Part shown: one piece after another, positions 8,866-27,625 of the stretch
How positions within the stretch are numbered: position 1 is the stretch's first letter
Layout: every line of letters starts with the position of its first letter
From: Bacteroidota bacterium
Lineage (GTDB): Bacteria > Bacteroidota > Bacteroidia > Bacteroidales > PUMT01
Direction of reading: 5' to 3'
Length of the DNA: 39,605 nucleotides
Assembly: GCA_003554865.1 (NCBI GenBank)
Contig: PWHJ01000044.1
Span: 1-39,605 of the forward strand
The notes under the pieces: model-generated
Database searches by the model: none
The model's input: the letters and a program-made list of their open reading frames with translations, nothing else
Told to the model about the DNA's origin: nothing
Made by a program: the position numbers and the translations under genes

Positions 8866-10146
8866 ATGTCAACTCAACCCCTGTGTGAGGATTTTTTGCA
8901 TTTTATATGGAAGAACCGCCTTTTCGATCCTTTGCTTTTTCTGACCGCTTCGGGTGAGAGGGTCGAGGTAGTGCATCCGGGAGAATATAATAATGATTCC
9001 GGCCCCGATTTTTTCAATGCCAAAATACGTTTAGGTTCAACAACCTGGGCTGGCAATGTGGAGGTGCATTTGCGCTCCTCCGACTGGTTAAGGCATGGCC
9101 ATAACAGCGACCGAGCATACGATAATGTTGTTTTGCAGGTGGTGAAAAATGATGATGTCCGGATATGCCGCACTAACGGGGAACCGGTGCCTACGGTTGA
9201 GATAAAGTATGAAACCAAATTGTTTGATAATTACTGCAAATTGCTTGAAAGCGATTTATGGATACCATGTCAGAATATGATAAGTCGCATAACCACCCCT
9301 GCAATAGAGTTGTGGCTTGACAGGCTTGCTATGGAGAGACTGGAGAATAAGGCAGACAGATTGCTTAAAAATCTGAGGTTGAATAAAAATGACTGGGAAG
9401 AGACTTGTTACCAGCAGATTGCCCGAAATTTTGGCTTGAAGCTGAATGGACTTCCCTTTGAGATGCTTGCAAAACAGACCCCTTTGAAAATTATTTCAAA
9501 ACATAAAGACAGCCTTACACAGATTGAAGCTTTGTTTTTCGGTCAGGCCGGCATGCTTGATGAACCGGAAGGAGATGATTATTATGCAGATCTTAAAAGG
9601 GAGTACAATTTTTTGCGGCATAAATTCAGGCTTAAACCTCTGGGCAAGCATTTATGGAAATTTATGCGTATTCGTCCATCTAATTTCCCAACTGTGCGTA
9701 TTGCTCAGTTTGCAGCATTGATGCAGCAAACTGCCGGCTTGTTCTCAAGGGTCATCCAAAGCTCCGGGCAGGGATATTTGCATGAATTGTTCAATGTGAC
9801 AGCATCAACTTACTGGGATACTCACTACGTATTCAACAGGACAAGTATAAGGTCGAAGAAAAAGGTGGGAAAAGTCACAGTCAATCTTTTACTGATAAAT
9901 ACTGTTGTTCCGCTTCTAATTCTTTACGGTCGTTTCAAAGATAACAAGGTTTACGGGGAAATGGCCCTGAGGTTGCTGAAAGAAATGGAGGCTGAAAGCA
10001 ACTTTGTAACTAACAAGTGGAGGGAGCTCAACTTTGAAATTCCCGATGCCTTCATTTCACAGGCGTTTCTGCAACTTAAATATGAATACTGTACCCCCAA
10101 AAAATGTTTGCAGTGTTCGATCGGCAGCACTCTTATAGGTAAATAA
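8866..10146 (+). CDS. DUF2851 family protein
   Basis: This 426-residue protein matches the DUF2851 family, found mainly in Bacteroidota, for which no function is established. Recognisable parts are the N-terminal FLHFIWKNRLFD stretch, the HPGEYNNDSGPDFFNAKI segment with several acidic and asparagine residues, and WAGNVEVHLRSSDW. The C terminus carries a CxxxxCLQC cysteine cluster (YCTPKKCLQC), possibly metal-binding. The acidic/polar N-terminal core recalls nuclease-like folds, but that is only an impression. It lies between pyrF and the rpsO promoter and is probably cytoplasmic, since no signal peptide is seen. Confidence 0.85.
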   Translation: MSTQPLCEDFLHFIWKNRLFDPLLFLTASGERVEVVHPGEYNNDSGPDFFNAKIRLGSTTWAGNVEVHLRSSDWLRHGHNSDRAYDNVVLQVVKNDDVRICRTNGEPVPTVEIKYETKLFDNYCKLLESDLWIPCQNMISRITTPAIELWLDRLAMERLENKADRLLKNLRLNKNDWEETCYQQIARNFGLKLNGLPFEMLAKQTPLKIISKHKDSLTQIEALFFGQAGMLDEPEGDDYYADLKREYNFLRHKFRLKPLGKHLWKFMRIRPSNFPTVRIAQFAALMQQTAGLFSRVIQSSGQGYLHELFNVTASTYWDTHYVFNRTSIRSKKKVGKVTVNLLLINTVVPLLILYGRFKDNKVYGEMALRLLKEMEAESNFVTNKWRELNFEIPDAFISQAFLQLKYEYCTPKKCLQCSIGSTLIGK

Positions 10147-12793: not shown

Positions 12794-13438
12794 ATGGATC
12801 TGGAATATATTGTAATTGAGGGTAACATTGGTGCCGGGAAAACCTCCCTTGCAAACAAAATAAGCAAAAGGTTCAATTCGGCATTAATAAGCGAGCAATT
12901 TTCCCCAAATCCATTTTTGGAAAAGTTTTACAGCGATCCCCGGCGTTACGCTTTCCCCCTTGAAATGTCTTTCCTGGCAGAAAGATACACTCAGCTGAGC
13001 CGTGTTTTTTCTTCCCGCGACACGTGCGGCTCTTTTTTTATATCTGATTATTTTATAAGCAAATCCCTTATATTTTCAAAAATAACTCTTACAGGAGAGG
13101 AATCAGATCTTTTTGAGAGAATATATTCAATAACCTCCCGCCCCCTTCCCCGGCCATCCCTGTATGTTTATATTCACAGAAGCGTTGAAAATCTGCTGCA
13201 AAACATCCGCAACAGAGGACGCTCTTATGAACGGTCAATTAGTGTATCCTACCTGGAAAAGATCGAAAAGGGATACCTCGAATATCTTAACTGTAAAGAG
13301 CGGGAAAAGCGTATGAAAATATTGATGGTAGATCTAAAAGATATTGATTTTATAGGAGATGATACCAACTTCGAGACTTTAATAAACGTTATTTTTAAAA
13401 GGTCACATTCTTTCGGATTGAATAGTATAGTTATATAA
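12794..13438 (+). CDS. Deoxynucleoside kinase
   Basis: This 214-residue protein belongs to the deoxynucleoside kinase family (dCK/dGK/dAK type), which phosphorylates salvaged deoxynucleosides. The P-loop GNIGAGKT spans 10-17 with K16. FISDYF stands where the family usually has an acidic-arginine substrate motif, and an RNRGRSYER segment further on fits the arginine-rich lid. The substrate cannot be told from sequence; deoxyadenosine/deoxyguanosine is usual for bacterial members of this size. It follows pnp after 34 bases with no terminator, so it may share its transcript. Confidence 0.85.
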   Translation: MDLEYIVIEGNIGAGKTSLANKISKRFNSALISEQFSPNPFLEKFYSDPRRYAFPLEMSFLAERYTQLSRVFSSRDTCGSFFISDYFISKSLIFSKITLTGEESDLFERIYSITSRPLPRPSLYVYIHRSVENLLQNIRNRGRSYERSISVSYLEKIEKGYLEYLNCKEREKRMKILMVDLKDIDFIGDDTNFETLINVIFKRSHSFGLNSIVI

Positions 13439-16122: not shown

Positions 16123-17313
16123 ATGAACATTCATGAATATCAGGGTAAGTATATTTTAAAAAAATCCGGGGTTGCAACCCCTGAAAGTGTTGTTGTCGAT
16201 TCACCCGATCAGGCGGTTGACGCGGCAAAGCAAATAGAATCGAAAACCGGTACATCCACCTGGGCAGTCAAAGCCCAAATCCATGCCGGCGGAAGAGGCA
16301 AGGGAGGTGGAGTAAAGATAGCCAAATCACTTGAAGAGGTAAAGAAATACACCTCAGAAATTCTGGGTATGACACTTGTAACTCACCAGACCGGTCCGGA
16401 AGGAAAGAAAGTTCACAGAGTTTTGATCGAGCAGGGTATATATTATCCCGGAGAAAGCGAAGTGGGAGAGTACTATATGGGGGTATTGCTGAATCGTCAG
16501 ACAGGCAGGAATATTATAATGTATTCACCCGAAGGGGGAGTTGATATTGAAACCGTTGCAGAGAAAGCCCCGCACTTGATATTCAAGGAGGAGATAGATC
16601 CTGCTGTGGGTATTCAGCCCTTTCAGGCCAGGAAAATAGCTTTCAATCTGGGTTTGTCCGGTATGGCATTCAAGGAGATGGTAAAGTTTTCCTCATCACT
16701 GTATAAGGCTTATGAAGGTTGTGACGCCTCGTTATTTGAGATAAACCCCGTGTTTAAGACTTCAGACAACAAGATTTTTGCAGCTGACGCCAAAGTGGTT
16801 CTCGATGATAATGCTCTTGGCCGTCATTCTGAATACGCTGAAATGCGTGATATCACAGAGGAAGACCCTGCCGAGGTAGAAGCGGGCAAGTATGATCTTA
16901 ATTTCATCAAGCTAGACGGGGATGTGGGTTGCATGGTGAATGGTGCAGGACTGGCAATGGCCACAATGGACATTATTAAGCTGTCCGGCGGCGATCCTGC
17001 CAATTTTCTTGATGTAGGCGGTGCTGCAAATGCAGAAACCGTTGAAGCCGGTTTTCGCATAATACTTAAAGATCCCAATGTAAATGTAATATTGATAAAT
17101 ATTTTCGGTGGTATTGTGCGTTGCGACAGGGTTGCACAGGGAGTCGTCGAGGCCTACAAGTCAATCGGAGACATAAACGTCCCGGTTATTGCACGTTTGC
17201 AGGGAACAAATGCCGGTGAGGCCAAAGAGCTCATAGACAAGTCCGGATTAAAGGTATACCCGGCCATATCTTTAGAGGAAGCAGCTTCACTGGTAAAAGA
17301 AATGGTAGGATAA
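16123..17313 (+). CDS. sucC: Succinyl-CoA synthetase beta subunit (ADP-forming)
   Basis: SucC carries the nucleotide-binding ATP-grasp half of succinyl-CoA synthetase, a TCA-cycle enzyme. The 396-residue protein starts with the family signature MNIHEYQGKYIL, has the ATP-grasp loop AGGRGKGGGVK, and the C-terminal ligase half with NIFGGIVRCDRVAQG. The alpha subunit SucD, which holds the phosphohistidine and CoA site, is not next to it. A lone sucC is common in Bacteroidota but means that the partner must lie elsewhere. Confidence 0.95.
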   Translation: MNIHEYQGKYILKKSGVATPESVVVDSPDQAVDAAKQIESKTGTSTWAVKAQIHAGGRGKGGGVKIAKSLEEVKKYTSEILGMTLVTHQTGPEGKKVHRVLIEQGIYYPGESEVGEYYMGVLLNRQTGRNIIMYSPEGGVDIETVAEKAPHLIFKEEIDPAVGIQPFQARKIAFNLGLSGMAFKEMVKFSSSLYKAYEGCDASLFEINPVFKTSDNKIFAADAKVVLDDNALGRHSEYAEMRDITEEDPAEVEAGKYDLNFIKLDGDVGCMVNGAGLAMATMDIIKLSGGDPANFLDVGGAANAETVEAGFRIILKDPNVNVILINIFGGIVRCDRVAQGVVEAYKSIGDINVPVIARLQGTNAGEAKELIDKSGLKVYPAISLEEAASLVKEMVG

Positions 17314-17415: not shown

Positions 17416-17537
17416 TGACAAAATATATTTGAGCCGATTTAGGGCCAACTCCTCCGATCCGCTTCAGCAGCGGGTGCTGATAGGTAAAATACAATAAATT
17501 TTGTTGGTTTTCCGTATATTTAAAAAATTTGTTAATT

Positions 17538-17960
17538 ATGGAATCCAACGAACAGTTCAGAAAGGATCTGCAAACTCTTGTCGAGTTGTTTAAAAAATAT
17601 GCCGACAAAGTCTCGGATGGAGAAATTGATGGAATGGATCCTGAACTTGCAAAACAGTTCAAAATGATGCTGGGTAATTACGATATGGTAAAAAATATGA
17701 TGCCACAGCAAGTGCCTGAACAATTCAGGGAGCCATTCCAGCAAATGATAAAGTCTCTTATTCATCAGTTAAAAGAAGAGGTTGGTGATGTGGATGTTTC
17801 TGAAAATGAAATAAGTGAAGAAAAGACCGGCAACACCCAAAGTATAGAAGAGATACAGGAAATTCTTAAAAAGCCCGGTCTCAGCAATGAGGAAATAGAC
17901 GAGCTGCTTGACCGGATGAGCTCTTTAAAAAACAAAGGTGAAGATCAGTTTCCGGTTTAA
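17538..17960 (+). CDS. Small acidic protein of unknown function
   Basis: I do not recognise this 140-residue protein. The start at ATG 17538 is preferred over an in-frame TTG nine bases upstream. It is rich in glutamate, glutamine and methionine and looks almost wholly alpha-helical. There is a middle stretch with MMPQQVPEQFREPFQQM, then a low-complexity acidic linker, then a C-terminal helix pair (GLSNEEIDELLDRM) that resembles a small helical hairpin. No signal peptide, membrane segment or cysteine is present, so it should be cytoplasmic. It has its own strong terminator. An adaptor or chaperone-like role is possible, but nothing specific supports it. Confidence 0.7.
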   Translation: MESNEQFRKDLQTLVELFKKYADKVSDGEIDGMDPELAKQFKMMLGNYDMVKNMMPQQVPEQFREPFQQMIKSLIHQLKEEVGDVDVSENEISEEKTGNTQSIEEIQEILKKPGLSNEEIDELLDRMSSLKNKGEDQFPV

Positions 17961-18029: not shown

Positions 18030-18430
18030 ATGTGTGCCGGCGGCTGTTTAACCTGGCGGTGAAAATCCGCTATTGGGCAAGGAGGCAAGGAGGAAAACTA
18101 ATTTTTTTCTTTCTAAATCGATCTCTTCTATGCATTCCTAAATCTATTTCCTCTCCATTTAATTGATCTACTCTATGCATTGACCCTCTCTGCACCTGAA
18201 TGAAATAAAACAACAAATCCCTTGAAGCCTGCAAGTCTCACATAAGCAGGTTGTTACACTGTTTTGTTGAATGTTTTATCACCAAAAAAAATATATTCAT
18301 TACTTAAAAGTAACAGTTTATGTAAAATATAGTTTTTATTGCTTGCCGGATTCAAATTTTGTTTAATTTAATCTAAAAATAAAGCGCCGAAAATTTCAGT
18401 GTTTTAGGGGGTTTTCCCGAAATTATCTTT

Positions 18431-18527
18431 CAGGATTAACGATAATAAATCTGGCCCGGAATTAACGGTTGGTTCAGGATTAACGGTAAGAAATCTGGCC
18501 CAGGAATAAGGGTAATAACTCTGGTTC
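18431..18527. repeat. 44-48-bp direct repeat with internal sub-repeats
   Basis: Two copies start at 18431 and 18475. Each opens CAGGATTAACG, continues through AAATCTGGCCC and then holds a second, weaker AGGAAT-type sub-unit. ATTAACG-like cores recur at spacings of 26, 18 and 26 bases. The alternation of two sub-unit types resembles the array at the end of the window, though the sequence differs. It may be a remnant of a transposon end or a protein-binding array. Confidence 0.7.
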
Positions 18528-18670: not shown

Positions 18671-20398
18671 ATGGATAATAATGTAGTATTGTTGCAGCCC
18701 TCTTTATGGAAGGTTGAAAAAATAGGGGTTATCGGGACAGACATAGCCGGATTGGCTTTGGCTGCAATGCTGGCACAGGCAAAAGTTAAAATCGGCAGCG
18801 ATAACCCTGCCAAAGTTATTATAGTTCGGCTGAATTCATCTTCCCCCGAATATGAAGCAGTAGAGAAAAATACCTTACAGGCATTAACAGAAATGGCAGA
18901 GCCCGGGTTGGGTAAATTGATAACCGGTGCTTTGGCGGAAGGATCTTTAATTGAAAGTTATGATTTTGATATCCTGGCAGATGCCGATGTAATTATTGTG
19001 TTTGCAAACACAGACAAAAAAGGGCTTGAGCCGGATTATAAATTTCTTGTGGAAGTTGTGAAAAAGCTGGGAAGTGTATTGAAAAGCAAACCGGCCGGCA
19101 AAATCCCTCTTGTTATATTTGAGGCAACACTTGCCCCCACAACAATGAGCACTCTTATATGGGACCTTTTTGACAAAAACGGTCTTACCGAAGGCAGGAA
19201 TATATTACTCGGCAATTCACCAGGCAGGGTTATGAGAGGAAATATTACTGAAATGATAAGGAAAACCGACAAGCTCGCCGGTGGTTTGCACCCTGAAACC
19301 CCTGAACTTATAGCGGAGCTTTACAATTATATTACAACGGAAGCATGTGTTCACAAGACCAATTGTTTGACCGCCGAGATTGTAAATACATTTGAAAATG
19401 CTTACAGGGATGTTAAAATTGCTTTTTCCACTGAGATTACAAGGTTTTGCGACCACAAAAATATTGACTTTTATGCTCTAAGGGAGCAGGTAAATGAAAA
19501 GTTTACAAAGCCACGCAATACAATATCATCTCCTATTGCCGCTGCCAATTGTGGCATGCTGACCCCGATGCTTGGTGTGGGCGGGCATTCCCTTCCAAGG
19601 GACGGCATATTTTTGTGGTGGAGAAATATTGAAGCCGGCTGTGATGTATCGGGCAGCATTGTTATCAGGTCCAGGCACATTAACGACAAGTCACCGGTTG
19701 CAGTCTTTAAGCAGGCAGAAACCCATTTCCCCATTGTTAAGGGCAACAAGATTGTGCTTCTTGGTGTTGCATACAGGCCCAACTGCGGTGACACCAAAAA
19801 TTCCCCTGCCATTGTGCTTGCAAATTACCTCCTGAAAAAAGGGTATACTTATATAATGCACGACCCTTATGTGAGTGGGGATGACTGGAACCTGAAGAAA
19901 TATGATCAGCAGGTTTTTTTTACCGATAATCTTGAAGAAGCGGTCAAAGATGCGGATTACCTTTTTATGTGTTCTCCCCACGATATATATGTTGAAAATT
20001 TTGACAAAATATTTACCACTGGTAGAGTGAGCGGTGTAATGGATGCATGCAATATTTACCAGGCTTCCAGGTTCAGTGAAAACGGCATTGAATACACCGG
20101 GGTAGGCCGGGGCAGGGAAGAGCCTCCCCAAAAACTGATAGACTTTGTTTACCAGAGCTTTTTGTTACTGGAAAAGGGGCTTGCACTTGAGTTGTGCGCG
20201 CTGATAGAATTTTATAATCTCAATTTTGTTTTCGACCCCTTTAACAAAGTGAAGTTCAGTGAAGTGAAAAGACTTGTTGCATCCGGCACTACCGGCTGTT
20301 ATTTAACCGAACCCGAAAAAATAAAAAACACTCCCCACTATAACGGCTTCCAGAGCAAACTGTTGGCTCATGCAGGTAAAACAAATATTAAATTATAA
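18671..20398 (+). CDS. UDP-sugar dehydrogenase homologue lacking catalytic Lys and Cys
   Basis: The 575-residue protein (ATG at 18671; the frame is open further upstream without support) has the three-domain UDP-glucose/UDP-ManNAc dehydrogenase layout. There is an N-terminal Rossmann part (IGVIGTDIAGLALA), a central helical part, and a C-terminal Rossmann part (LLGVAYRPNCGDTKNSPA) followed by an unusual ~100-residue tail. The helix TAEIVNTFENAYRDVKIAF aligns with WecC, but the catalytic lysine is N239 and the nucleophilic cysteine of the GGHC loop is S307 (GVGGHSLPRD). N243 and D311 are kept. Without Lys and Cys the standard thiohemiacetal route to an acid should fail, so a two-electron or non-oxidative role is likely. 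First gene of the nucleotide-sugar block. Confidence 0.82.
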   Translation: MDNNVVLLQPSLWKVEKIGVIGTDIAGLALAAMLAQAKVKIGSDNPAKVIIVRLNSSSPEYEAVEKNTLQALTEMAEPGLGKLITGALAEGSLIESYDFDILADADVIIVFANTDKKGLEPDYKFLVEVVKKLGSVLKSKPAGKIPLVIFEATLAPTTMSTLIWDLFDKNGLTEGRNILLGNSPGRVMRGNITEMIRKTDKLAGGLHPETPELIAELYNYITTEACVHKTNCLTAEIVNTFENAYRDVKIAFSTEITRFCDHKNIDFYALREQVNEKFTKPRNTISSPIAAANCGMLTPMLGVGGHSLPRDGIFLWWRNIEAGCDVSGSIVIRSRHINDKSPVAVFKQAETHFPIVKGNKIVLLGVAYRPNCGDTKNSPAIVLANYLLKKGYTYIMHDPYVSGDDWNLKKYDQQVFFTDNLEEAVKDADYLFMCSPHDIYVENFDKIFTTGRVSGVMDACNIYQASRFSENGIEYTGVGRGREEPPQKLIDFVYQSFLLLEKGLALELCALIEFYNLNFVFDPFNKVKFSEVKRLVASGTTGCYLTEPEKIKNTPHYNGFQSKLLAHAGKTNIKL

Positions 20399-20416: not shown

Positions 20417-21505
20417 ATGAAGATACTTATTGCTGGTAATATGGGGTACATCGGCCCGAGTGTTATCAATCAGCTGAGAGGTACTTTTCCTGATGCTGAA
20501 CTTATAGGCTTTGATATTGGTTATTTTGCACATTGTCTTACCAATCCCCTGATTCTGCCTGAAGTTAAATTAAACAGGCAAGTATTCGGAGACATAAGGA
20601 AGTTCCCGGAAAAAATGCTGGAAGGTATAGATGCAGTTATTGACCTTGCTGCAATATCAAATGATCCTATGGGAAACAGATATGAAGAGGTTACACTGGA
20701 TGTAAATTACCGAAGTGCTGTAAAACTTGCCAAAATGTCCAGGGATGCGGGGGTAACGTCTTTTGTTTATGCATCGAGCTGCAGTATGTACGGTGCGGCT
20801 GATCAATATCCCAAGTCGGAAAATGATGAGCTTAATCCCCTTACTGCATATGCAAGATCAAAGGTTTATGCAGAAAAGGAGCTTGAATCACTGGCAAGGG
20901 ATAACTTTAAAATTACATGCCTGAGGTTTGCAACAGCTTGTGGTTTTTCCAGCAGGCTGAGACTTGACCTGGTCCTTAATGACTTTGTCGCCGGAGCCCT
21001 TGTTTCAAAGGAAATATCTATATTAAGTGACGGTACTCCCTGGCGTCCGATGATAAATACCAAGGATATGGCCCGCGCCTTTGAGTGGGGTATAGTAAGA
21101 GAAAACAAACAGGGGGGTAACTTTCTGGCTGTAAATACAGGCAGCGATGAATGGAACATTCAGGTTAAACCCCTTGCAGAGGCAATTGCAAGAATCATTC
21201 CCGATGTAAAAATATCTGTCAATCCTGATGCTCCTCCTGATAAAAGGTCTTACATGGCAAACTTTGAACTTTTTAAAAAGCTTGCACCGCATCATCAGCC
21301 TGTACATGGCCTGGAGAACACAATAAAGGAGGTAAATGACGGACTGAAAGGAATGGGATTCAATGATGCGGATTTCAGAAACTCCGGTTTTATTCGTTTG
21401 AAGACTTTGAATCGCTTGCAGAATCAAAATTATCTTAATAACAACCTGGAATGGAAGTTTATAAAACAACCGGATATTAAAACTATTGAGCATGATATTC
21501 ACTGA
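20417..21505 (+). CDS. Extended SDR nucleotide-sugar epimerase/reductase
   Basis: The 362-residue protein is an extended short-chain dehydrogenase acting on nucleotide sugars. The NAD(P) loop is G7-x2-G10-x2-G13 in AGNMGYIGP, and the catalytic pair is Y145/K149 in YARSK with a serine at 121-123 (SSCSMYG). Sugar 4,6-dehydratases carry Thr-Asp-Glu at this serine position. Here it is Ser-Cys-Ser, so dehydration is unlikely and epimerase or 4-keto-reductase activity is preferred. It starts 18 bases after the dehydrogenase homologue and overlaps the next gene by 14 bases, a sign of tight co-expression. Confidence 0.85.
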   Translation: MKILIAGNMGYIGPSVINQLRGTFPDAELIGFDIGYFAHCLTNPLILPEVKLNRQVFGDIRKFPEKMLEGIDAVIDLAAISNDPMGNRYEEVTLDVNYRSAVKLAKMSRDAGVTSFVYASSCSMYGAADQYPKSENDELNPLTAYARSKVYAEKELESLARDNFKITCLRFATACGFSSRLRLDLVLNDFVAGALVSKEISILSDGTPWRPMINTKDMARAFEWGIVRENKQGGNFLAVNTGSDEWNIQVKPLAEAIARIIPDVKISVNPDAPPDKRSYMANFELFKKLAPHHQPVHGLENTIKEVNDGLKGMGFNDADFRNSGFIRLKTLNRLQNQNYLNNNLEWKFIKQPDIKTIEHDIH

Positions 21506-22034
21506 AACAGATCTCAAAGGAGCTTTTATTATTGAGATAAAAAAAATTGAGGATGAAAGAGGTTTTTTCGGACGTTCATGGTGCCGGAGGGAAATGGAGG
21601 AGCATGGACTTAAGGGGGAGATAGTACAGGCCAACACTTCCTTTTCAAATAAAAAAGGTACTTTGAGAGGCATGCATTATCAGGTGCCTCCATATGAAGA
21701 GGCAAAGATTATAAGGTGTGTCAGGGGGGCGATATATGATGTTATAATTGACTTAAGACCAGGTTCATCCACATACAAAAAATGGGTTGGCACCGAACTC
21801 TCATGTGACAATTACAAAATGCTTTATGTGCCCGAGGGTTTTGCTCACGGTTTCCTTACGCTTACAGACAATGTCGAGGTTTATTATAATGTCACTGCAT
21901 TTTACACACCCGGTGCAGAAAGAGGTATCAGGTGGAATGACAGCTCTTTTAACATTAAATGGCCGTTTGAACCGGTTGTGATCTCCTCAAAGGATAAGGG
22001 ACATCCCGATTTTACCGAACAGATATTTAAATAG
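21492..22034 (+). CDS. RmlC-like dTDP-4-dehydrorhamnose 3,5-epimerase family protein
   Basis: The 180-residue cupin (start ATG 21492, preferred over an in-frame TTG at 21486) is an RmlC-family sugar epimerase. Family marks are the RGFFGRS segment, the catalytic histidine in LRGMHYQ, the VPEGFAHGF stretch and a tyrosine-rich strand (VYYNVTAFYTP) near the catalytic tyrosine. RmlC acts on 4-keto sugars. As no rmlA, rmlB or rmlD is present and a cytidylyltransferase is, the substrate may be a CDP- rather than dTDP-sugar; that is inference. A mono-epimerase or 3-epimerase role is possible. Confidence 0.87.
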   Translation: MIFTETDLKGAFIIEIKKIEDERGFFGRSWCRREMEEHGLKGEIVQANTSFSNKKGTLRGMHYQVPPYEEAKIIRCVRGAIYDVIIDLRPGSSTYKKWVGTELSCDNYKMLYVPEGFAHGFLTLTDNVEVYYNVTAFYTPGAERGIRWNDSSFNIKWPFEPVVISSKDKGHPDFTEQIFK

Positions 22035-22061
22035 TTAGTTTTTAAAATTAAATTATTCGCA

Positions 22062-23237
22062 ATGACCAGACATGATTTTTGCCCAAGTTGCCATGAAAAT
22101 GATACGGAGGATTTTTTTAAAATCAGAAATGCGCCCACTCAGAGCCTTCTCACTGTAAAAAGCAGCGATGAAGCGCTGGCTGTAAAAAGAGATGATATTA
22201 ACCTCGGATTTTGCAGCAAATGCGGGTTTATTTACAATACAACATTTGATACAACAATAGATTATTTTACTCAGGGTTATGAAGATCAGCAGGGTTTTTC
22301 CCCTACATTCAAAAAGTTCATAACAGGCATTTGCAATCGTATAATAGATAAATATGATCTTCGCGAAAAAGATGTTATCGAGATTGGATGCGGTAAAGGC
22401 GATTTTATTTCATTGCTTTGCGAGCTGGGGAATAACCGCGGAACAGGAATTGATCCTGCTTATGTACCCGGAAGGGTTCAGCCTAATCCAAGCCTGAGGT
22501 TTATACCGGAGTTTTATAGTCAAAAGCATGGTAGCCTACCTTATGATTTTATCTGTTGCCGGCATACTCTTGAACATATACATGAAACGGGAAATTTTTT
22601 AGAGACCATCAGAAATTCCATCGGCAACAGAAAAGATGTGGTAGTTTTTTTTGAGGTTCCCTCTATTTCAAGGATTCTGAAGAAACAGGCTTTCTGGGAT
22701 ATATTTTACGAGCATTGCACATACTATAGCCCTGGTTCTCTAGGCAGGCTGTTCAGGTTAAACAGGTTTGAGATATTGGATATGTACCTAGAGTATGATG
22801 ATCAGTATCTTTTTATTGAAGCCAGACCGGTTGATGATGTATCTGATAAGATACAACCTCTGGAGGAAGGGATAGATGAACTGAGGGAATTAACCCGGAA
22901 TTTTACTGTAGAAGTTAATCAGCGCCTTGATAAATGGCGGCATGATCTTAAGTCACTTAAAGATGCCGGCAGAAAGACAGTTATATGGGGAGGCGGATCA
23001 AAATCTGTCGGATTTCTCACAAATCTTGATGAAATGAAGGCAATAGATCATGTTGTGGATATCAATCCCCATATGCAGGGTAATTATATACCCGGTATTG
23101 GCATTCGATATCTTGGCCCGTACGATCTTGTTAAACACAAACCCGATGTTGTTATCATAATGAATTCGGTTTACAAGGATGAGATTAACAGAATGCTGAA
23201 TGAGAGAAATCTTTATCCTGAATTAGTCGGATTGTAA
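22062..23237 (+). CDS. Sugar C-methyltransferase with zinc-binding N terminus
   Basis: The 391-residue protein has the three-part build of deoxysugar C-methyltransferases such as TylC3 and TcaB9. A zinc knuckle has C7-x2-C10 and C51-x2-C54. A SAM-binding Rossmann domain carries EIGCGKGDF (107-115) and an RHTLEHIHE motif. A C-terminal Rossmann-like domain (VIWGGGSKSVGFL) is thought to hold the nucleotide sugar. Known members methylate C3 of a 4-keto-deoxysugar through an enol intermediate, giving branched sugars. It lies 27 bases after the RmlC-like gene, which fits a shared 4-keto substrate. Confidence 0.87.
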   Translation: MTRHDFCPSCHENDTEDFFKIRNAPTQSLLTVKSSDEALAVKRDDINLGFCSKCGFIYNTTFDTTIDYFTQGYEDQQGFSPTFKKFITGICNRIIDKYDLREKDVIEIGCGKGDFISLLCELGNNRGTGIDPAYVPGRVQPNPSLRFIPEFYSQKHGSLPYDFICCRHTLEHIHETGNFLETIRNSIGNRKDVVVFFEVPSISRILKKQAFWDIFYEHCTYYSPGSLGRLFRLNRFEILDMYLEYDDQYLFIEARPVDDVSDKIQPLEEGIDELRELTRNFTVEVNQRLDKWRHDLKSLKDAGRKTVIWGGGSKSVGFLTNLDEMKAIDHVVDINPHMQGNYIPGIGIRYLGPYDLVKHKPDVVIIMNSVYKDEINRMLNERNLYPELVGL

Positions 23238-23316
23238 TATAATGGTTCTGCGTAATAGGCAAAATGACAATTTACAGATATGCAATGATATTATTAATAC
23301 TTTTAATTAATCTATA

Positions 23317-24549
23317 ATGCAGTATGACATTACTATTATCGGCGCCGGTATTGTAGGACTGGCAACTGCTTTAAAAATAAAGGAATTCAATCCTGCTGTG
23401 AGGGTTTGTGTTTTGGAAAAGGAAAAAGATATTGCCCTGCATCAAACCGGCAACAACAGCGGTGTAATTCATGCCGGAGTGTACTATAAGCCCGGGAGCC
23501 TTAAAGCCCTGAACTGCCGGAAAGGATATAAAATGTTGGTTGATTTCTGCAGGAAACATGAAATCAAATTTGATTTATGCGGGAAGCTTATTGTTGCAAC
23601 CACCGGTGAGGAGCTCCCCCGGCTTGAGAGTCTTTATGAGAGATGTCTGGAGAATGGTTTAAGTGAAGTCAAAAAGATACCCGGAGAAGCTATAAAAGAA
23701 TACGAGCCATATGGCACCGGTTTGGCTGCAATATTTGTCCCATACACCGGAATTGTCGATTTCAGTGAAATCTCAAGGTATTATTTGAAATTGTTTCAGG
23801 AATGGGGTGGGGATGTTTTACTTGAGAGGAAGGTTAAAGGAATTGAGCACAAAGAATCATACTCAGAAGTTATAACTGAAAAAGAGGTCCTGACTACCGG
23901 GCTTGTTGTAAATACAGCCGGCCTGCATGCTGACCGTATTGCGCGTTTAACCAATTCCAGACTCAATGTAAGGATCATTCCTTTCAGGGGTGAGTATTAT
24001 GAGCTTGATCCTTCCAGGGCTCATTTAGTTAAGGGGTTGATTTACCCTGTTCCTGACCCTGCATTTCCTTTCCTTGGTGTTCACTTCACCCGTAAAATAA
24101 ACGGAGGAGTAGAGGCAGGGCCGAATGCAGTTTTTGCATTCAGCAGGGAAGGCTATGGAAAGTTTAGCGTTTCGCCACGAGATCTTTATGAATCACTAAC
24201 TTGGAAAGGATTTCATATAGTGATGAAAAAATACTGGAGAACCGGAGTTGGAGAATATTACCGGTCATACAATAAAACAGCCTTTACCAATGCGCTGAGA
24301 AGGCTTTTGCCATCACTTGAGAAAAAAGATCTTAGACCCGGAGGTTCAGGAGTAAGAGCTCAAGCCTGCGATAAGTATGGTGGATTGATAGATGATTTTT
24401 TGATAATGGAAAGTAAACGCCAGCTGGATATACTTAATGCTCCAAGTCCCGCTGCAACTGCATCATTGGCTATTGCTGAGACTATAAGCGGCAAAGCCTT
24501 AAAACATATTGGAAAAAAAATGATAAAACAGCATAATGTAATAAATTGA
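23317..24549 (+). CDS. lhgO: L-2-hydroxyglutarate oxidase-like FAD oxidoreductase
   Basis: The 410-residue flavoprotein has the FAD loop G9-x-G11-x2-G14 (IGAGIVGLA), the [16 protein letters not shown] segment diagnostic of the LhgO/YgaF group, and the C-terminal GGSGVRAQ and DDFLI stretches. LhgO oxidises L-2-hydroxyglutarate to 2-oxoglutarate and passes electrons to the membrane. Its place inside a sugar cluster, ending 2 bases before the cytidylyltransferase start, is unexpected. It may instead oxidise a sugar-derived hydroxy acid or a secondary alcohol of the nucleotide sugar. Family assignment is firm, substrate is not. Confidence 0.85.
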
Positions 24550-24551
24550 TT

Positions 24552-25337
24552 ATGAAGGCAATTATCCTCGCAGGTGGTTTCGGAACCCGCATAAGTGAAG
24601 AAAGCGGCGTGAGGCCCAAACCTATGGTAGAAATTGGTTCAAAACCAATTATATGGCATATAATGAAAATATACTCATTTTATGGCATAAATGATTTTAT
24701 AATATGCTGCGGTCATAAAGGCCATATTATAAAAGAATATTTCTCGAATTATTTTTTGCACATGTCTGATGTAACTTTTGATTTGGGATCTAATTCGATG
24801 GAAATTCACAGGAGTCCACACGAAAACTGGAGAGTGACCCTTGTTGACACAGGGGAAAATACCATGACAGGGGGGAGGATAAAAAGAGTAGCCCCTTATT
24901 TGAATAATGAAACTTTTTGCCTGACTTATGGCGACGGAGTTATTGATTCCAGCATCAGCGATTGTATTGAGTTCCATAAAAGCCAGGGTGTTTTGACGAC
25001 TTTGACTGCTGTCCAGCAACCGGGACGTTTTGGGGCCTTCTCACTTGGTCGGGGTGAAACAAAGATCGGCAGCTTCAGGGAAAAACCTAAAGCCAATGGC
25101 GATGATAATGCATGGATTAACGGTGGTTTTTTCGTGGTTGAGCCGCAGGCACTCGATTATGTAAAAGATGACCTAACAGTCTGGGAACGCGACCCATTGG
25201 AGATAATGGCCAAAAGCGGACAACTTGCTGCTTACAGACACTATGGATTTTGGCAGCCGATGGATACACTCAGAGACAGGAATGTACTGGAAGAAATTTG
25301 GCAAAGCGGTGAAGCTCCATGGAAATTATGGGAATAA
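24552..25337 (+). CDS. rfbF: Glucose-1-phosphate cytidylyltransferase
   Basis: The enzyme joins CTP and glucose-1-phosphate to give CDP-glucose, the entry to CDP-dideoxyhexoses. The 261-residue protein (ATG 24552, preferred over a TTG at 24546 that would overlap lhgO) has the nucleotidyltransferase start [19 protein letters not shown], the YGDGV metal-binding aspartate and [10 protein letters not shown], which fits RfbF closely. CDP-glucose 4,6-dehydratase (RfbG), its normal partner, is not seen in this window. Confidence 0.92.
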
Positions 25338-25419
25338 AAATGAATTTTCACTAAAAAAGTTGACAATAATAATTATAAAAGCTGGCCGGTAACAACCATC
25401 CAAAAAAAACTCAAAAACC

Positions 25420-26721
25420 ATGATGCTTGTGGATAATATTTTAAAAAACAGGGAGCAAAATAATAATCCCATAAAAGTCGGGATAGTTGGGACAGGAGCT
25501 ATGGGGTTTGGTTTGATTAACCAGATAACCAGATATACTCCCGGTATGACAGTTGCCGGGGTTTATAACAGGACTCCCGCTAAAGCGATTCAAGCTTTTG
25601 ACTATTCTGGCATAAGTGATTATGTTGTTTGTAACGGTAAGGCTAAGACTGCACAGGATGCTTTTGATTCTGGTAAACCTTTTATTACCAGGGACATCGA
25701 TATTTTACTCGATTTAAAAGGCATTGATGTTTTAGTTGAGATTACAGGTACAATAGAATTTGCCTTGATGACTGTATTGAAAGCATTTAAAAAAGGCATA
25801 AGTGTACTATCATTCAATGCCGAGCTGGAATCAGCATTTGGCCCGCTTCTTAAACAAACGGCATGTGATTACGGAGTCAGATACGGTCTAAGTGACGGAG
25901 ACCAGCCCGGGGTTACAATGAACCTTTACCGCCATGTTAAGTGTATGGGATTTGAACCTTTGCTTTGCGGGAATATCAAAAGTTTTCATGACCGCTACCG
26001 AAATCCTGAAACTCAAAAGGGATTTGCTGCCAAATGGGGAATGTCGCCTGAAATGGTAACAAGCTTTGCTGACGGTACTAAAATTTCATTTGAACAATCC
26101 TGTATTGCAAATGCCACGGGTATGAAGGTTGCAAAAAGGGGCATGCTTGGCTATCATTCAAATGAACATGTTGATGAGCTGACACACTTGTATGATGTTG
26201 ACAGGGTCAGGGAGTTGGGAGGAATAGTTGATTATGTGATTGGAGCAAAACCCTCACCGGGAGTTTTTATCTACGCTGCAATCAATGATCCATATTCAAA
26301 AAAAATTTTGAGTTATGCGAAAATGGGCAACGGCCAACTTTACAGTTTTTACGCTCCCTACCACCTCCTTTTTTTCGAAATAACCAGTTCAGTTTGCAGG
26401 CTTGTTGATTTAGACGATCCGGTTATCATTTCCAAAAAAGAGCCCGTCGTTGATGTGATCACAGCTGCCAAGGTAAATCTGTATAAAGGAGATATAATTG
26501 ACGGCATAGGAGGCTTTAAAACCTATGGGTTATGTGAGAATCATGATATAGTCCTCGGAGAAAATATATTGCCTATGGCACTTGCAAAAGGTTCTGTTTT
26601 GAAAAGAAATGTAAAGCGTGATGAAATTTTGTCTTTTGATGATGTGGAGATTGATGAAAGCGGATTTTTATTCAGCATGAATAAATTGTTGGATAATATG
26701 TTTCCAGTTTTGGATTCTTGA
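25420..26721 (+). CDS. Homoserine dehydrogenase-like oxidoreductase with SAF domain
   Basis: The 433-residue protein resembles the 'predicted homoserine dehydrogenase' group that carries a C-terminal SAF domain. The NAD(P) loop is G24-x-G26-x2-G29 (VGTGAMG), followed by VEITGTIEFA. The last ~90 residues (KGDIIDGIGGFKTYG to the end, with ENILPMALAKGSVLKRNVKRDE) read as the SAF fold also found in sialic-acid synthases. True homoserine dehydrogenase features are weak and amino-acid genes are absent nearby, so a role in sugar or sugar-acid reduction is likelier; substrate unknown. It follows rfbF after 82 bases. Confidence 0.8.
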   Translation: MMLVDNILKNREQNNNPIKVGIVGTGAMGFGLINQITRYTPGMTVAGVYNRTPAKAIQAFDYSGISDYVVCNGKAKTAQDAFDSGKPFITRDIDILLDLKGIDVLVEITGTIEFALMTVLKAFKKGISVLSFNAELESAFGPLLKQTACDYGVRYGLSDGDQPGVTMNLYRHVKCMGFEPLLCGNIKSFHDRYRNPETQKGFAAKWGMSPEMVTSFADGTKISFEQSCIANATGMKVAKRGMLGYHSNEHVDELTHLYDVDRVRELGGIVDYVIGAKPSPGVFIYAAINDPYSKKILSYAKMGNGQLYSFYAPYHLLFFEITSSVCRLVDLDDPVIISKKEPVVDVITAAKVNLYKGDIIDGIGGFKTYGLCENHDIVLGENILPMALAKGSVLKRNVKRDEILSFDDVEIDESGFLFSMNKLLDNMFPVLDS

Positions 26722-26905
26722 TAAACAAATATTAAGATAATTTAAAAAGGGATGATTTTTTATTCAATTAATTTTAGTGGAGATCGCCAGGTTTTAAAAT
26801 GTGTTAAAGAGTTTAAGAGTATTTATGGATTAATGTTTGATATCCGGGATGTCCTGTTTGTATACTATATAATAAATGATAATAAGGTTTTGAATTATTA
26901 AAAAA

Positions 26906-27625
26906 ATGAGAAACATATTAATTACCGGGGTAAGCTATGGATTGGGAAATTATTTGACAAGAAGGTTGATTAATGATGGTTTTAAAGTCATTGGGATAGA
27001 CTGCATTTTTCCTGAATCACTGAGAAAGGAAATTGATGATAAATCCTTTTTTTATTATAATCAAGATCTGAATAAAATTGAAGAAATAAATGGATTATTG
27101 AATAGGATTAACAGTAATCATGAAAAAATCGATGTGGTTATTAATAATGCGGCTATCTTAAATTTTAAATTTTTTTTAAGTTACAACTCTTCTGAAATAA
27201 CCCGGAAATTAAAAGTAAATCTTATAGCACCAATTGTTATTGTGAATTTTTATTTGAAATACATGATTGAAAGAGATTATGGCAGAATAATTAATATTTC
27301 CTCTGTATCAGCATTTAGGGGTGGAGAGACTACATCAGTGTATGCAGTTTCCAAAAGCGGTCTTAATAGGTTTCATCATGTATTATACAAAGAAATGAAG
27401 ATGATCAATACATCAGTTAATGTGACATTAAATACCATTTGTCCTGGTAGAATAGCATTACCAGAATTTTTAAAAGAAAATCCAGAGATCAATTCCAAAA
27501 AATTGATTCAGCCGGATAAGATTTTTTTTATTATAAAAAAAATTATTACCGGTAATGTAAATGGTAAAATATATGTAATTCCAAAATTTAACTGGAAAAG
27601 ATTAATAAACGAAATTAAATTATAA
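26906..27625 (+). CDS. Classical short-chain dehydrogenase/reductase
   Basis: The 239-residue SDR has the TGVSYGLG cofactor loop at 7-14, the NNAA motif, a catalytic serine in ISSVSA and YAVSK. These fit an NAD(P)-dependent reductase of a ketone or alcohol. The C-terminal part is shorter and more lysine-rich than most, and the gene is strongly AT-rich, unlike genes upstream. It is set off by a 184-base gap before it and a large palindrome after it. It may reduce a keto sugar made by the cluster; that is inference. Confidence 0.85.
   Translation: MRNILITGVSYGLGNYLTRRLINDGFKVIGIDCIFPESLRKEIDDKSFFYYNQDLNKIEEINGLLNRINSNHEKIDVVINNAAILNFKFFLSYNSSEITRKLKVNLIAPIVIVNFYLKYMIERDYGRIINISSVSAFRGGETTSVYAVSKSGLNRFHHVLYKEMKMINTSVNVTLNTICPGRIALPEFLKENPEINSKKLIQPDKIFFIIKKIITGNVNGKIYVIPKFNWKRLINEIKL

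Follow-up and report, generated by a model that had tools for sequence, protein, structure and literature searches.

A nucleotide-sugar dehydrogenase homologue of Bacteroidales whose active site appears to have been lost in three different ways within one genus

What keeps a nucleotide-sugar dehydrogenase homologue in a genome when its active site is broken? The question is raised by a protein of 575 aa encoded at 18671..20398 (+ strand) in a stretch of 39,605 nucleotides from a Bacteroidota bacterium (contig PWHJ01000044.1), the whole of which is referred to here as the window. The open frame has 575 codons with zero internal stops and its start Met is aligned with the start Met of its relatives, which bears out the original prediction, made from the sequence alone, that the gene is full length. 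All three UGDH domains are matched in Pfam (PF03721, PF00984 and PF03720). The TIGR03026 score is 205.3 bits against a cut-off of 189.8, and this carries a warning for annotation, as the gene, lying above the cut-off, would be annotated as a nucleotide sugar dehydrogenase.

Fold and active-site residues of the window protein

By sequence, the nearest solved relatives in HMMER comparisons are 3g79 (E 6.9e-43), 4r16 and Cap5O. An AlphaFold2 model built with 60 sequences (pLDDT 85.6, pTM 0.87) has the UGDH fold, matching 4r16 with a Z of 34.0 and an rmsd of 2.2 over 410 residues, human UGDH (2q3e) with a Z of 31.1 and 1dli, the S. pyogenes enzyme, with a Z of 26.5. The protein begins with an N-terminal NAD-binding Rossmann domain (residues 17-212; 18719..19306, +; PF03721), and a C-terminal UDP-binding domain (residues 363-464; 19757..20062, +; PF03720, E 3.3e-17) is followed by a C-terminal extension (residues 482-575; 20114..20395, +) that is modelled with a long helix at 487-518. 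An extra tail of some 100 residues had been noted in this gene. The tail is real, at about 95 residues, but it is family-wide and not special to the window protein, being found also in nine members with a full active site and in the congener G002; in a further congener, G001, the gene is cut before the tail by a contig end. The tail bears a CxTGC motif in 9/9 active members, which may use it as a metal or disulphide site. At the same place, the window protein has GTTGC (residues 539-543, 20285-20299) and G002 has SSEGF.

While the fold is retained, the residues of the chemistry are not. In the alignments to 3g79, 4r16 and Cap5O, the column of the catalytic Lys (human UGDH Lys220) holds Asn at codon 239 (AAT, 19385..19387, +), and that of the catalytic Cys (human UGDH Cys276) holds Ser at codon 307 (TCC, 19589..19591, +). 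Asn243 and Asp311, the counterparts of human Asn224 and Asp280, are both present, and all four assignments agree with the original prediction. Human counterparts given in this work (Lys220, Asn224, Cys276, Asp280, Thr131 and E161) are residues named in the cited papers and paired with the window protein by alignment. The loop around the replaced Cys, GVGGHSLPRDG, is near the active form GVGGHCLPKDG. Both Rossmann parts had been thought to look intact, which proved wrong for the NAD domain. The GPGIVG of relatives is GTDIAG, with Asp at codon 24 (GAC, 18740..18742, +) replacing the second Gly of GxGxxG, and QR53-54 and SGWK59-62 have become RL and PEYE. Ser152 is replaced by Ala, and the conserved Arg of DTRNSP by Lys at codon 376 (AAA, 19796..19798, +). 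The protein has ten cysteines in all, and another of these may reach the active site.

A wider background was drawn from a scan of viral contigs with a broad UGDH alignment, which gave 79 loci and 57 aligned proteins and also served for the structure model. Cys307 and Ser152 are each present in 57/57 of these rows and Arg376 in 55/57, and these three positions lie outside the search patterns. The corresponding figures for Lys239 (57/57) and Gly24 (55/55 rows with a residue there) are partly built in, because the two fetching patterns contain that Lys and the NAD-motif Gly; the bias covers residues 24, 239 and 243.

Active relatives and their gene cassette

Genome searches recovered a family of 12 members in 11 genomes, all of them of the window's order. 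Hits came from 6/60 relatives and 10/393 genomes of the order, two overlapping samples that both include the window's own genome, while a 395-genome sample of the phylum returned the window's own genome only. The limits of these searches were E 1e-40 or 1e-60, and in the phylum and order samples at most three candidates per genome were scored. On plasmids, the best 30 of 690 records contained distant UGDH relatives only, as did 17 phage records, with none in either set aligned over 80% of the query. No relatives were found on viral contigs in scans with the family alignment, an active member and the genome's own WecC-like paralogue.

Nine members have a full active site, with the loop GVGGHCLPKDG in 9/9 and a Lys segment that takes three forms, AEIVKTLENAYRD (six members), AEVVKTLENAYRD (two) and AEIEKTLENAYRD (one). 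They are 57-78% identical to each other, with all but one pair coming from different families, and 44-54% identical to the window protein, which has the same length and tail. Beside the dehydrogenase, 9/9 active stretches carry asnB, a flavin amine-oxidase-like gene and a polysaccharide deacetylase gene, and 2/9 additionally carry a UDP-GlcNAc 2-epimerase gene (family names were taken from one representative per cluster). By analogy with the WbpS/VimE pathway of P. gingivalis, these active enzymes would supply a uronic acid for amidation. A further peculiarity of the nine concerns residue 185, the equivalent of human Glu161, which is Glu in 56/57 viral rows, Asn in the nine active members (SPNRVMPG in 9/9) and Gly in the window protein. 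The members with Asn (L023, L024, L025, L026, L028, L029, L030, L031 and L033) adjoin the asnB amidotransferase gene. An E161Q mutant of the human enzyme was crystallised with the thiohemiacetal intermediate (PMC3184952), and in the cassette family the acyl intermediate is perhaps freed to ammonia or to a partner.

It had been proposed that Asn239 and Ser307 might mark a new subfamily. Neither residue occurs in any of the other members (0/11; 60 relatives, 395 phylum and 393 order genomes, and a genome-contig scan with two loci), whose codons at these positions are AAA/AAG and TGC/TGT. With Lys and Cys both present in 11/11, Asn and Ser do not define a subfamily; 11/11 likewise retain the second Gly of GxGxxG. 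The two substitutions are thus private to the window gene, an outcome named beforehand as counting against the proposal. The real grouping is a lineage, spanning the genus and found at one locus, that has lost active-site residues in three ways.

The genus locus and its active-site losses

Three genomes of the genus were compared, the window's own (G000), G001 and G002. In all three congeners, sucC (16123..17313, +; NF001913 above cut-off) is followed by a small conserved gene (17529..17960, +; about 69% identity, no Pfam match) and then by the dehydrogenase, and gene order further upstream is shared too. Identity to the congeners is 86-87% for sucC and 46-50% over shared columns for the dehydrogenase. 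Within the 710-base gap upstream of the dehydrogenase, two direct 41-base copies that are 85% alike lie at a spacing of 44 (18429-18513).

An NAD-dependent epimerase/dehydratase (SDR) gene (20417..21505, +; PF01370) starts 18 bases downstream of the dehydrogenase and is followed by an RmlC-type sugar 3,5-epimerase gene (21486..22034, +) and, further on, by a glucose-1-phosphate cytidylyltransferase gene of the RfbF type (24546..25337, +; TIGR02623 above cut-off). In G002, nucleotide-sugar genes begin 14 bases after the dehydrogenase and are of the RmlC and RfbF types, as in the window; the RmlC-type product, directly after the dehydrogenase there, is 84% identical and the RfbF-type product 78%. 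The G001 dehydrogenase is cut at residue 449 by the contig end, and an rfbF fragment stands at the end of another contig; a search of the G001 genome for the missing tail, run without a positive control, gave no match. The cluster at 20417-27625 is itself unusual, comprising an SDR epimerase, the RmlC type, a C-methyltransferase, an L-2-hydroxyglutarate-oxidase-like protein, the glucose-1-phosphate cytidylyltransferase, a DRL-type oxidoreductase and a short-chain dehydrogenase. This composition suggests a branched CDP-sugar, and from the cluster the RmlC and RfbF types alone were matched in the fetched stretch of G002.

The fetched stretches of the three congeners contain no neighbours of the cassette kind. 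Searches of the G000, G001 and G002 genomes for the cassette partners gave no cassette-grade match (E 1e-10, 1e-10, 1e-20); in G000 the deacetylase had a single partial match, at 32%. The same searches found all three partners in G007, a genome of the same family (12/16 family genomes searched).

The three congeners have lost different parts of the active site. The window protein lacks Gly24, QR, SGWK, Ser152, Lys239, Cys307 and Arg376. G002 and G001 both keep GxGxxG, Lys and Cys; in G002 the loop GVGGHCLPKDG has become CIGEHCYSKES (with Asp311 changed to Glu) and Arg376 is Lys, and in G001 the loop is GTGQKCISNDG, with Ser for Asn243 and Asp at residue 376. With the 215 columns that are invariant in the nine active members as reference, motif columns, hand-chosen after the alignment had been seen, are lost at 24/69 in the window, 24/69 in G002 and 27/69 in G001, and other invariant columns at 38/146, 40/146 and 38/123, respectively. 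When each active member was left out in turn as a control, it had lost 0-1 of 69-70 motif columns and 2-13 of 148-159 others. Within each congener, losses at motif columns are not in significant excess over losses at other invariant columns (Fisher P 0.20-0.27). Within the genus the active site no longer enjoys special protection, and the losses are not aimed at it. Against the viral background, 55 columns are at least 90% conserved (80% occupancy, 57 rows), and the window differs at 21 of them, G002 at 21 and G001 at 23.

These comparisons also bear on simpler explanations. The idea that a lineage active elsewhere suffered a single mutation here is rejected, both sister species being degenerate too. 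An error of sequencing or assembly in this metagenome-assembled genome, the real gene keeping Lys, Cys and Gly, might be suspected from an assembly of 243 contigs and from the fact that Lys to Asn and Cys to Ser are each possible by one base. Such an error is scarcely credible given that the window differs at 62/215 columns invariant in the nine active members, that the congeners are degenerate too, and that ten window genes, the dehydrogenase included, show zero internal stops at 46-87% identity to those of the congeners.

A changed chemistry had also been suggested, with Asn and Ser substituting for Lys and Cys in a two-electron oxidation to the aldehyde or in an epimerisation via transient oxidation. 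Asn243 and Asp311 are kept and the window loop stays close to the active form, and in human UGDH a C276S mutant accumulates a covalent adduct and Lys220 mutants retain some activity (PMC3184952). Against this stand the change of Gly24 to Asp, the disappearance of QR and SGWK, and the changes S152A and R376K. Moreover, Lys and Cys survive in the sister species, where it is the GGH loop that was lost, so the genus has no one altered active site in common. With NAD binding, by its looks, damaged as well, a switch to a new oxidation or epimerisation reaction is highly unlikely.

Constraint on the protein and comparison with known systems

If catalysis has gone, the gene may be either on its way out or kept for something else. 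The main rival to retention is the slow decay of an orphan: the cassette was lost, no pathway remained and the gene is drifting towards a pseudogene, its frames open by chance or under weak residual selection. Pairwise dN/dS values by NG86 and YN00 were mostly saturated, and purpose-written codon likelihood models were therefore used; with synonymous sites saturated, absolute omega values from these are rough, and they average over the time before and after the losses in the three genomes of the genus. On the 12-member tree, where the genus split has a support of 100, omega is 0.138 in the genus and 0.026 elsewhere (lnL -17978.0 vs -17999.8 for one omega). This fivefold rise is what decay would produce, and decay would equally explain why cassette partners were not found in three congeners, why different residues are lost in each species and why the CxTGC motif of the tail has gone too. 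Fixing omega at 1 on the genus branches, stem excluded, is nevertheless far worse than leaving it free (lnL -18150.7 vs -17980.9). For the window branch alone, omega = 1 is weakly rejected on this tree (lnL -17995.8 vs -17998.1), a point that also favours decay, although the comparison is weak, since synonymous change can be taken up by the saturated branches of the sisters.

When times were taken from seven neighbour genes, omega on the window branch was 0.14 and omega = 1 was about 288 lnL units worse; even at a quarter of the neighbour-derived time it was 44 units worse. A late neutral phase long enough for the excess amino-acid change would be expected to leave 10-14 stops, and the probability of none, the number observed, is 9e-7 to 4e-5. 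When 0.18 neutral changes per site were simulated, 0/2000 copies remained stop-free for each of two starting genes. Three open frames, one of them cut by a contig, at a saturated synonymous distance likewise argue against decay. Two further genes of the window are fast between congeners amid very conserved neighbours, namely 8866-10146 (58-60% identity to the window, omega 0.107) and 12794-13438 (49-52%, omega 0.115). With two neighbours nearly as fast, the rate of the dehydrogenase is not unique. On these codon comparisons, the genus dehydrogenase frames are not only open but on average under purifying selection.

The pattern of constraint has itself changed. Between the genus trio and the nine active members, conservation profiles are uncorrelated (r 0.01), compared with r 0.80-0.94 for 84 control trios of active members, each set against the remaining six. 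Conservation among the three congeners peaks in a beta5-alpha6-beta6 block at residues 147-182 (19109..19216, +), modelled as beta5 147-150, alpha6 158-169 and beta6 178-182. Mean pairwise identity at residues 149-178 is 0.88 in the genus vs 0.73 in the active members, and with third codon positions there at an identity of 0.47 in the genus, it is the protein and not the DNA that is conserved. Sixteen columns are fixed in the genus for a residue absent from the active members, and 7/16 fall within residues 160-177. This clustering in 18 columns has, by shuffling, a P of 0.0007 among trio-identical columns and 0.0001 among all columns, and active trios have at most three derived fixed residues in a stretch of that size. 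Newly fixed residues gathered in one helix region speak against decay. The catalytic loop (residues 284-313) has gone the other way, with mean pairwise identity down from 0.80 in the active members to 0.16 in the genus; as the window loop still has a mean identity of 0.54 to the active members, the fall comes largely from G002 and G001.

Taken together, the omega tests, the stop expectation and the conservation profile support the original view that the gene is selected and not decayed, and they lend support to the structural role that had been suggested among its possible functions. Slow decay is a possibility to be taken seriously, though not a likely one. The window protein is probably a genus-specific pseudo-dehydrogenase that is non-catalytic and kept for contacts or sensing via beta5-alpha6-beta6. 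Catalysis may already have been dispensable in the ancestor of the genus, and the protein would have been kept as a subunit contact, a scaffold or a sensor of nucleotide sugars. The human enzyme has a buried allosteric switch, made up of the Thr131 loop and the alpha6 helix, which responds to bound sugar; alpha6 lies in the hexamer-building interface (PMC11713868, PMC3184952). A role of this kind is transferred to the window protein by alignment from a distant hexameric enzyme, and the non-catalytic function would then depend on the block that contains the human subunit-assembly switch. As partners, the likeliest candidates are the products of the nucleotide-sugar genes immediately downstream, or else an active paralogue encoded at another place in the genome; these enzymes and the paralogues G000:C150 and G000:C5 are candidates by position and kinship only. 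A more detailed scenario, offered tentatively and rather unlikely in its full form, is that loss of the pathway turned the dehydrogenase into a sensor or assembly subunit, with selection on the Thr131-loop/alpha6 switch and independent erosion of the NAD site and catalytic loop in each species.

The closest known systems are the NDP-sugar 6-dehydrogenases (TIGR03026), including UDP-ManNAc dehydrogenases of the 4r16 type, Cap5O (3ojl) and the Methanosarcina mazei protein 3g79. The window protein shares their three-domain fold, can be aligned with them over nearly the whole core and keeps Asn243 and Asp311. It differs from them in lacking the catalytic Lys, Cys and second Gly, in having Gly at the Glu161 equivalent and Lys for Arg376, and in its extra tail. 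The nine cassette dehydrogenases of 575 aa, from the same order, have Lys, Asn, Cys and Asp and the cassette partners, whereas none of these partners lies beside the window gene. In P. gingivalis, WbpS, an AsnB-type amidotransferase, and VimE, a putative deacetylase, belong to the Wbp/Vim pathway of the linking sugar of type IX secretion cargo, the sugar being a uronamide (PMC7468200). In the cassette of the active members, too, sugar enzymes are accompanied by an amidotransferase of the AsnB type and a putative polysaccharide deacetylase. As far as the searches reached, these partners are absent from the window's genus, and a link to the type IX secretion system would hold by analogy only.

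A partial structural match to the model (Z 17.2) is given by the dehydrogenase domain of N-PAC/GLYR1 (2uyy), which differs from the window protein in being eukaryotic and of the beta-hydroxyacid dehydrogenase family. The dehydrogenase fold of N-PAC/GLYR1 is regarded as serving assembly rather than catalysis. With a homologous fold and the essential catalytic residues lost, the window protein is a probable pseudoenzyme. Among the titles and abstract openings of the open-access literature, most subscription journals lying outside it, no bacterial pseudoenzyme of the UGDH superfamily was found. Pseudoenzymes as such are already known; the same literature gave no description of a putative case in this superfamily that combines active relatives in a cassette with three eroded orthologues. 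Pseudoenzymes are usually described singly, and here active cassette relatives can be compared with three differently eroded orthologues, which makes it testable which part of an enzyme outlasts selection for its chemistry.
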